From: a virus
Direction: 5' to 3' (one strand)
Virus record (IMG/VR): IMGVR_UViG_3300001681_000101
Coordinates: 1-20,962 of that record
DNA: 20,962 nucleotides
Below, piece after piece: positions 13,321-15,331 of this stretch. A program made the translations under genes and the position numbers. The notes beneath the pieces were generated by a model. It searched no databases and had not been told where the DNA came from. It saw only the letters and a list, made by a program, of their open reading frames with translations. The first letter of the stretch is position 1; each line of letters opens with the position of its first letter.

Positions 13321-13959
13321 ATGACTACAAATAAAAAATCATTCTTACTGCATATAGACAGCTTAGATATACTGGATGATTTAACCAACGGACAAGCAGG
13401 AGTGTTATTTAAAGCTATAAAAGCTTATCAACATAACGAAGAATTCCCGCTTGATAGTGTAGTAAAAATAGCGTTTTCACCATTCAAAAACCAGTTTATT
13501 AGGGATGATGAGAAATACATCAAAACATGCGAAAGGCGTGCTATTGCTGGCTCTAAAGGAGGTAAGCAAAAGGTAGCAAATGCTAGCAAATGCAAGCAAG
13601 AGGTAGCAAACGTAGCAGATAGTAATAATAAGAATAAGAATAAAACAAAGAATAAAAGTGATAATTATAGTAAAGACATATATCAGCAAATAGCTGATGC
13701 ATACAATGAAGTTTTCCCTCACTTGCCTCAAGTGGTAAAGGTTAGCCAGAAAAGAAAGTCGCATATATCAGCAAGTATTACCGAATTTAAAAAAGAGTTT
13801 GGTTTTGACAGCGCTGAAAACTGGAAGGGTTTATTTTGCCATGCAGCAAAAAGCGATTACCTTATGGGGAAAGTTAACGGTTGGTCAATGAGTTTTGATT
13901 TCGTGATCAACAAAGCCAACCTACTAAAAATAATTGAAGGGAACTATGACAATGCTTAA
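13321..13959 (+). CDS. Replication initiator/helicase-loader-type protein carrying the candidate origin
   Basis: This 212-residue protein lies just before the helicase. Residues about 1-75 (KSFLLHIDSLDILDDL, then TNGQAGVLFKAIKAYQ, later FKNQFIRDDEKY) resemble the N-domain found in phage replisome-organiser proteins such as those with a DUF6291-type start. A low-complexity K/N linker (about 80-117) follows, then a C-domain (YQQIADAYNEVFPHLPQVVK with a NWKGLFCHAAKSDYLMG segment and a final DFVINKANLLKIIEGNY) of the type that contacts the helicase. This two-domain plan matches lambda O. Its gene contains 10-bp repeats and an A+T-rich tract in the linker. The 3' end overlaps the helicase start. 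The name is inferred from layout. Confidence 0.62.
   Translation: MTTNKKSFLLHIDSLDILDDLTNGQAGVLFKAIKAYQHNEEFPLDSVVKIAFSPFKNQFIRDDEKYIKTCERRAIAGSKGGKQKVANASKCKQEVANVADSNNKNKNKTKNKSDNYSKDIYQQIADAYNEVFPHLPQVVKVSQKRKSHISASITEFKKEFGFDSAENWKGLFCHAAKSDYLMGKVNGWSMSFDFVINKANLLKIIEGNYDNA
13561..13680 (+). other. Candidate replication origin: 10-bp iterons plus A+T-rich tract
   Basis: Five to six successive 10-base blocks (13561-13620) match the pattern x-x-g-t-a-g-c-a-a-a, for example AGGTAGCAAA twice (13571 and 13601) and TGCTAGCAAA (13581). They are followed by about 60 bases that are roughly 83% A+T (13621-13680). Ten is not a multiple of three, so the repeat is not a codon repeat and points to selection on DNA spaced at one helical turn. 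In lambda the origin likewise lies inside the initiator gene, with iterons beside an A+T-rich tract. Confidence 0.55.
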
Positions 13960-15331
13960 AGAACCACTTAACAATCTAAATGCTGAAAAGTCGATACTTG
14001 GTGCATTACTAACTGACTGCAATCACAGCACATCGAAACAAGCACTGGATATGATGGATTCATCAGCGCTTTACCTGCAAAGCCATCGCGTAATATTTGA
14101 CGCAATAAAAACAATGGCCGAGAGTAAAGAGGTAGTCGATACAATATCAGTGACCGAGAGGTTAAAAGCTAGCGGCACAGAAGCTATGTCAGGTGGTTAT
14201 TATTATATATCTGAGCTACCGCGTTCAGTAACTAGCTTAGCCCTTACACTTGTTCATGTGGACATTGTAAACAAGATAGCGATTAAGCGAGATATAATCA
14301 GAACAGCGCAACAGGCGATTGAACACTCTGAAAACCTTGAGCCAAGCGAGCTAATCGAGATGATAGAAAATAATCTCAAGTCAATTACATCAAAAGACAC
14401 AGGGAAAGAGGCGAGTCACATTTCAGATTTCGGTAATGATTGGCTAAACAAGCTTGATGAGCGAGTGCAAAGCGGGGGCGCTATAAGCGGATTAGAGACA
14501 GGAATAGCTGAACTCGATGAAAGACTATCAGGTTTTGATTTAGAGGGTTTAATTGTGCTTGCAGGGCGTCCTAGCATGGGTAAGACGTTATTAGCTCAGA
14601 CGATAATGGACTATGTAGGTGGTCACGCACAGAAAAACTGCATGTTCTTCTCTATGGAAATGAGCGACAAGCAAGTTTACGAAAGATTTATCTCTAAGGC
14701 TTCAGGCGTTTGCCCCAAGAAAATCAGAAGCGGAAAAGGTCTTAACAATGAAGATTGGGGGCGATTAACTAGCGGCATGGGCGCTGTCAATGCTAGTAAC
14801 ATCTACGTTGAGACAGATGCAAAGCTTTCAGTTGGTCAGATACGCGCAAGGGTGCGTAGGCATGTAGCTAAAAAGGGCTATATTGGGCTGATTGTTGTTG
14901 ATTATCTTGGTTTGATGGCTATGCCGAAAGCAGCTAGTTTAACAATATCTATTGGTGAAATAACCTCATCACTTAAAAGCCTAGCAAAAGAAATGGGCAC
15001 ACCTATTTTACTACTGGTGCAGGGTAGTCGAGCAATGGATAAGGGCGGCAGACCTGTAATGAGCGACCTTAAAGACTCAAGCTCGATTGAGGCTGATGCA
15101 GATGTGGTTTTATTTGTACATCGTCAAGAGGTTTTAGATCCCGACACTGAACTAAAAGGCGTAACAGAATTGATTATCGCTAAAGACCGACACAATGACG
15201 GAAACGGAACCATATACCTTTCAAAAATGTCGGGCGGTTTTGGGGCGTTAAGCGTTCAGGAAGTTGCAGAAATGACCCAAAGAGAAGAAGCTAAAAACAT
15301 GCCAGCACAGCGCGGATACCAAAGAGGTTAA
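13946..15331 (+). CDS. Replicative DNA helicase (DnaB family)
   Basis: A 461-residue helicase from ATG 13946 (a TTG at 13934 is less likely; AAGGG precedes 13946 closely, and ATG 13952 is also possible). It has the DnaB plan. The N-domain starts LNNLNAEKSILGALLTD and contains FDAIKTM and a YYYISELPRSV segment. The RecA-like domain has Walker A GRPSMGKT (207-214), MFFSMEMSDKQVYERF, Walker B LIVVDYLGLM (Asp319), SSSIEADADVVLFVHR and the final IAKDRHNDGNGTI loop (KNRNG-like). The canonical SQLSR sensor segment reads LLLVQGSRAMD. It unwinds the fork as a hexamer and partners with the upstream initiator. The start overlaps the upstream gene. Confidence 0.93.
   Translation: MTMLKEPLNNLNAEKSILGALLTDCNHSTSKQALDMMDSSALYLQSHRVIFDAIKTMAESKEVVDTISVTERLKASGTEAMSGGYYYISELPRSVTSLALTLVHVDIVNKIAIKRDIIRTAQQAIEHSENLEPSELIEMIENNLKSITSKDTGKEASHISDFGNDWLNKLDERVQSGGAISGLETGIAELDERLSGFDLEGLIVLAGRPSMGKTLLAQTIMDYVGGHAQKNCMFFSMEMSDKQVYERFISKASGVCPKKIRSGKGLNNEDWGRLTSGMGAVNASNIYVETDAKLSVGQIRARVRRHVAKKGYIGLIVVDYLGLMAMPKAASLTISIGEITSSLKSLAKEMGTPILLLVQGSRAMDKGGRPVMSDLKDSSSIEADADVVLFVHRQEVLDPDTELKGVTELIIAKDRHNDGNGTIYLSKMSGGFGALSVQEVAEMTQREEAKNMPAQRGYQRG

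Follow-up and report, generated by a model that had tools for sequence, protein, structure and literature searches.

The window is a viral record of 20,962 bases, linear in form. Its positions 13564-13683 very probably form the phage's replication origin, nested inside the gene for the initiator. This reading is drawn from sequence analysis and rests on the coincidence of phased iterons with an A+T-rich tract, each of them conserved at the DNA level, within a gene that combines DUF6291 with an O-like domain and precedes a DnaB gene (Table 1). It supports the initial annotation, which had proposed a candidate phage origin inside an initiator gene. The layout, the constraint at the DNA level and the gene order described below are results of computation.

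Table 1. Features of the putative origin region (window coordinates)
Feature	Position	Strand	Basis
Initiator gene, 212 aa	13321..13959	+	DUF6291 and replication-initiation matches
DUF6291 core, aa 1-74, predicted three-helix domain; putative origin-binding/oligomerisation part	13321..13542	+	Pfam, AlphaFold2
Candidate recognition segment, codons 69-81 (TCERRAIAGSKGG)	13525..13563	+	Residues 73, 74 and 76 follow iteron type
Five 10-bp iterons, core AGCAAA/G	13565..13610	+	TRF, pattern match, codon identity
Degenerate sixth unit, AGCAGA	13614..13619	+	9 bp after fifth core
A+T-rich tract, putative DNA-unwinding element	13624..13683	+	85% A+T, AATAAG-type 6-bp repeats
C-terminal domain, aa 121-212, P22 gp18/HK97 O-like; putative helicase-recruiting part	13681..13956	+	tblastn
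DnaB-like replicative helicase gene	13934..15331	+	PF03796 E 1e-66, PF00772 E 7e-17

The repeat array and its constraint as DNA

AGCAAA cores lie at 13565, 13575, 13585 and 13605 and an AGCAAG core at 13595, in exact 10 bp steps. The tandem 10-base blocks of the initial annotation are present as claimed (AGGTAGCAAA at 13571 and 13601, TGCTAGCAAA at 13581), and TRF independently reports a period of 10 with 5 copies at 13560-13610. With up to 3 mismatches allowed, a three-unit pattern has the array as its sole match in the window, and none of 100 dinucleotide-shuffled versions of the window matched it. Positions 13624-13683 are the most A+T-rich 60-mer of the window, the tabulated A+T content being reached by only 2 of 20,902 overlapping 60-mers, and TRF detects a 6-bp period at 13623-13655; the A+T content of about 83% given earlier agrees with the 83.3% of 13621-13680. 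An Rfam search gave no match. GC skew turns near 12.5-13.5 kb, where gene orientation turns too, and because skew follows gene orientation it was not counted as evidence for an origin.

The strongest single result is codon identity in relatives. In 14 relatives with the same repeat type, identical codons were counted wherever the residue was unchanged. These values, which are counts rather than a phylogenetic rate test and come from relatives that are not fully independent, reach 200 of 205 (98%) across the iterons (codons 82-98) and 195 of 209 (93%) across the A+T tract (codons 99-117), as against 54-60% in the rest of the gene (470 of 782 in the DUF6291 core, 267 of 492 in the C-terminal part and, in codons 67-81 just before the array, 101 of 178, or 57%). 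The sixth unit kept its codons in 10/10 and 12/12 cases where the residue was unchanged. Conservation sets in sharply with codon 82 (13564), a single base ahead of the first core: the codons used for C70 and R73, shortly before it, are for the most part random among relatives, and synonymous positions are nearly frozen across 13564-13671. The high synonymous-site conservation that had been expected is thus borne out, and the repeat itself recurs in relatives at the same place, with the A+T tract after it.

The array was also compared with synonymous-codon permutations, in which protein and codon usage are held fixed and self-identity is scored at each lag. Its identity is 30 at lag 10 (18.5 +/- 3.0 expected) and 22 at lag 20 (12.8 +/- 2.6 expected; p < 0.0005 for both), and none of the other lags from 6 to 20 is significant for the array of the initiator gene. 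Taking the best of 19 lags, the initiator gene scores a z of 4.3-4.4, compared with at most 3.8 in the other 24 genes of the window, and as a positive control the same scan recovers the 20-23 bp iteron spacing of lambda O. We relied on lag statistics together with codon identity because a chain-length statistic alone is weak for a single gene (5 units arise in 214 of 5000 synonymous permutations). The initial annotation had argued from the period that the pattern is DNA-level. The period alone is no proof, since three 10-bp units make one 30-bp super-repeat that encodes a 10-residue protein repeat (KQKVANASKC/KQEVANVADS), but the conclusion stands: the 10-bp pattern is selected as DNA, and the codon-identity test is the proof.

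The initiator and its known counterparts

Judged from its sequence, the initiator is modular, with an N-terminal DUF6291 domain, the putative origin, a C-terminus resembling P22 gp18 and HK97 O, and the DnaB gene next to it. DUF6291 (Pfam PF19808) matches aa 7-84 with an E of 4e-21 and 75.3 bits (curated cut-off, 27.2). At E up to 0.01, Pfam gives DUF6291 and no Phage_rep_O-type DNA-binding domain at the N-terminus, and it detects no Rep_3 winged-helix domain, the kind found in Rep proteins of iteron plasmids, in the initiator. AlphaFold2 predicts helices at residues 12-20, 23-37 and 46-78 (mean pLDDT 86 over aa 1-86); the third of these is long and stops close to residue 78, and the linker encoded by the origin is modelled at low confidence. 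Foldseek searches with the full model and with aa 1-86 returned no PDB match with an E below 2, VIA-align rows for the model stayed at the level expected of helical bundles, and sequence searches of the PDB, one with the DUF6291 profile and one with the C-terminal part, gave no hits. Because DUF6291 is without a recognisable solved relative, we only infer that it binds DNA.

The C-terminal part matches the replication initiation families phrog_19658, phrog_345 (O-like; E 1.9e-18) and phrog_5810, and tblastn of the C-terminal domain finds HK97 O (E about 1e-5), P22-like gp18 and a Pseudomonas 'primosomal protein I'. The helicase ORF has in-frame ATGs at 13946 and 13952. Elsewhere in the window, an ORF at 16283-16732 matches the phage peptidase HslV family (phrog_1040, E 1e-28), and a 247-aa ORF at 537-1280 lies on the minus strand, opposite to its plus-strand neighbours.

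An origin inside the initiator gene is an already known kind, represented by lambda O and Tuc2009 rep, and the window has the features of such origins: repeats in the coding sequence, an adjacent A+T tract, DNA-level selection and, adjoining the initiator, a gene of the helicase/loader kind. OriLambda likewise lies midway in gene O and consists of tandem iterons with an A+T-rich tract after them; the O protein has an N-terminal binding half and a C-terminal helicase-side half (PMC7466680, PMC6022878). The lambda repeats are 18-bp inverted repeats 20-24 bp apart that take two O each, unlike the 10-bp direct units of the window, and the gene after O is the loader P, whereas here it is DnaB. The window thus has the O-like C-terminal domain of the lambda O family and lacks its 18-19 bp dyad-symmetric iterons; the likeness to lambda O pointed out earlier holds for the layout and the C-terminal half but not for the N-terminal domain, which is unrelated in sequence. 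Closer in the C-terminal domain, which is homologous (about 31% over 89 aa), are P22 gp18/gp12 and the HK97 O-like gp54/gp55, and in HK97 a phage DnaB gene also follows O. The N-terminal half of these proteins is different, and HK97 gp54 shows lags of 7, 14 and 23 rather than 10.

The replisome organizers Tuc2009 Rep and TP901-1 ORF13 bind direct repeats inside their own genes, and these repeats act as origin (PMC8965321). Inspection of the Tuc2009 rep sequence shows 11-bp CAACCAAATGN units, and the lag scan shows a lag-10/20 stretch apart from them. The two proteins belong to a different family from that of the window, and their iteron sequence and host group are different as well. Staphylococcus phage 80alpha has an annotated rep_origin inside its initiator gene gp20, with repeats followed by a TAATAATAA tract; here the repeats are of 15 bp and the protein family is again different. 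The new iteron class suggested by the initial annotation therefore holds in part: short units already occur in Tuc2009 rep, but the AGCAAA/10-bp set in DUF6291 initiators appears undescribed. A literature search, limited in subscription papers, returned no description of a DUF6291 role or of the AGCAAA iteron type, and the AGCAAA iterons (10-bp, in relatives also 11-bp), their link to DUF6291 and the apparent exchange of reader and iterons appear to be undescribed in the literature searched.

Iteron types and apparent module exchange in the DUF6291 family

Relatives were sought in viral contigs with the DUF6291 N-terminus only, using a 20-row alignment without the iteron region; 80 of 312 were kept and, after dereplication and addition of four isolates, gave 62 genes. 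Three or more iteron types occupy one and the same position in these genes, among them AGCAAA (10 bp), an ACCCA-type and a TACCA-type with inverted copies, and the arrays nearly always precede a 6-bp-periodic A+T-rich tract encoding DSDS- or NKNK-like dipeptides. In the AGCAAA group, which comprises 27 dereplicated genes selected on the N-terminal protein alone and includes a few whose cores are weak or absent, synonymous permutation gives a Stouffer z of 15.6 at lag 10 and 13.9 at lag 20, with 5.5 at the next largest lag. Lag 10 stands out in the ACCCA group too (Stouffer z 6.7).

Viral contigs were also searched by repeat pattern. The three-unit 10-bp pattern occurs at 80 places, nearly all of them in initiator ORFs of the DUF6291 kind (57 of 61 dereplicated ORFs contain the domain), and across ORFs the arrays fall in all three reading phases. 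An 11-bp pattern occurs at 103 places, again largely in initiators, though with other N-terminal families, and additionally in a noncoding marine virus group; among the N-terminal families of 40 such initiators are DUF1376 (10), DUF6291 (7) and Lin1244_N (3). As controls, 9-bp spacing gave 21 places, mostly EAN/EAK codon repeats, and 13-bp spacing 1 place. Of the 85 places with 12-bp spacing, most are in-frame codon repeats and a few lie in initiators; in six loci (L427, L445, L452, L460, L490 and L504), initiator-like ORFs have AGCAAA-type repeats at this spacing (ANAQANAQAN). The statement that only the helical spacings 10 and 11 occur would therefore be too strong, and strict one-face phasing is not universal. 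A general R..AGxxGG motif was also rejected, since just 12 of the 40 initiators with 11-bp spacing have it before the repeats.

In the marine virus group, 11-bp AGCAAATGCT units followed by AAGATAAGATAAGATA lie between a gene labelled terminase-like from its ORF sequence rather than by family search and the next gene, which shows that the motif can exist as DNA with no coding function. Such noncoding arrays, AGCAAATGCT[GA] repeated 4-5 times before an A+T-rich tract, are found at L122:11902, L106:5928, L129:9302, L135:12305 and L163:7487, with a conserved hairpin, GGGAGTGG..CACTCCC, upstream. They are possibly an origin that has moved out of its initiator gene. A scan of bacterial genomes for the repeat yielded mostly noise, chromosomal minisatellites outnumbering initiators; 11-bp AGCAAA minisatellites outside initiator genes in Pseudomonas (L227, L278, L315) and Pedobacter (L214) are, as far as seen, unrelated to phage origins. 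In Aeromonas phage 4_L372X (L332; MK813940), the initiator is annotated as two ORFs, and the 6-bp-repeat A+T tract contains an N that is probably a sequencing ambiguity.

Each iteron type is matched in the relatives to a different short protein segment directly before the repeats. R73, A74 and A76 pair with AGCAAA iterons and N73 with the ACCCA and TACCA types; these residues lie upstream of the iteron DNA, where synonymous codons are free. R73 is present in 22/22 relatives of the AGCAAA type and in 0/32 of other types. It tracks iteron type in 5/5 independent pairs on supported branches, although five pairs cannot reach p 0.05, and the association may reflect hitchhiking with the neighbouring iterons. 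A tree of the DUF6291 core, built on 66 columns only, contains at least 21 changes of iteron type in its best form, well-supported branches force at least 6 changes of the AGCAAA label, and a TACCA-type relative (L348) nests inside the AGCAAA clade of the window. Site and putative reader appear to have been exchanged together. We tentatively propose a portable specificity cassette, a possibility to which we give slightly less than even weight, in which residues 69-83 (about 10-15 residues from the end of the long helix onward) read the iterons that begin at codon 82. If so, one short DNA exchange would swap an origin sequence along with its reader.

A further exchange affects the other end of the protein. 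Among relatives about 90% alike in the N-terminus, the C-terminal domains switch abruptly after the A+T tract, and close relatives have swapped this domain together with the next gene. In the loci read, a C-terminus like that of the window is followed by a DnaB-like gene, and other C-termini by an IstB/DnaC-like ATPase, another DnaB type or an unnamed protein.

Proposed mechanism, alternatives and implications

By analogy with lambda and with Tuc2009/TP901-1, initiator binding, opening of the A+T tract and helicase loading would take place at this site. Several initiator copies would line up on one face of the helix, contacting the AGCAAA repeats with the DUF6291 domain and the basic stretch that follows it (residues about 69-83), and the resulting nucleoprotein complex would strain and melt the adjoining A+T tract. 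The C-terminal domain would then deliver DnaB, the helicase encoded by the phage itself, to the separated strands, with the origin-encoded linker, predicted to be disordered, serving as a flexible tether.

Three other explanations of the conserved stretch were weighed. It is highly improbable that the repeats are simply a feature of the protein, a basic KQ/AN/SK linker followed by an N/K-rich one whose amino acids dictate the DNA pattern. The 10-residue repeat encoded by the super-repeat would suit this idea, but synonymous permutation and codon identity reject it, residues 91, 94 and 95 vary among relatives under constant AGCAAA cores, and arrays occur in every reading phase. The iterons might instead bind the initiator for autoregulation or copy control, through titration or handcuffing, while replication starts elsewhere. 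Plasmid iterons often serve both control and replication, and the data establish the constraint on the DNA, not its purpose. We nevertheless regard this as unlikely, given that an A+T tract, likewise conserved as DNA, adjoins the repeats, that an operator located 240 bp into the gene, past its start, would be unusual, and that the layout is that of proven phage origins. Slightly less probable still is a boundary sequence that favours exchange of the N- and C-terminal modules by homology, an idea that fits the switch of C-terminal domains right after the A+T tract. Homologous exchange needs neither 10-bp phasing, nor A+T richness, nor repeat types matched to a reader, and the same spot is occupied by three different iteron types.

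With replication origin as the preferred reading, the analysis suggests a likely role, origin binding, for DUF6291, a domain family of unknown function. It also points, from sequence alone, to candidate origins of replication in dozens of phages that are uncharacterised. With the putative reader segment and the DNA that it would recognise adjacent within a single gene, the initiator may represent a compact system for origin recognition and its evolution by exchange.
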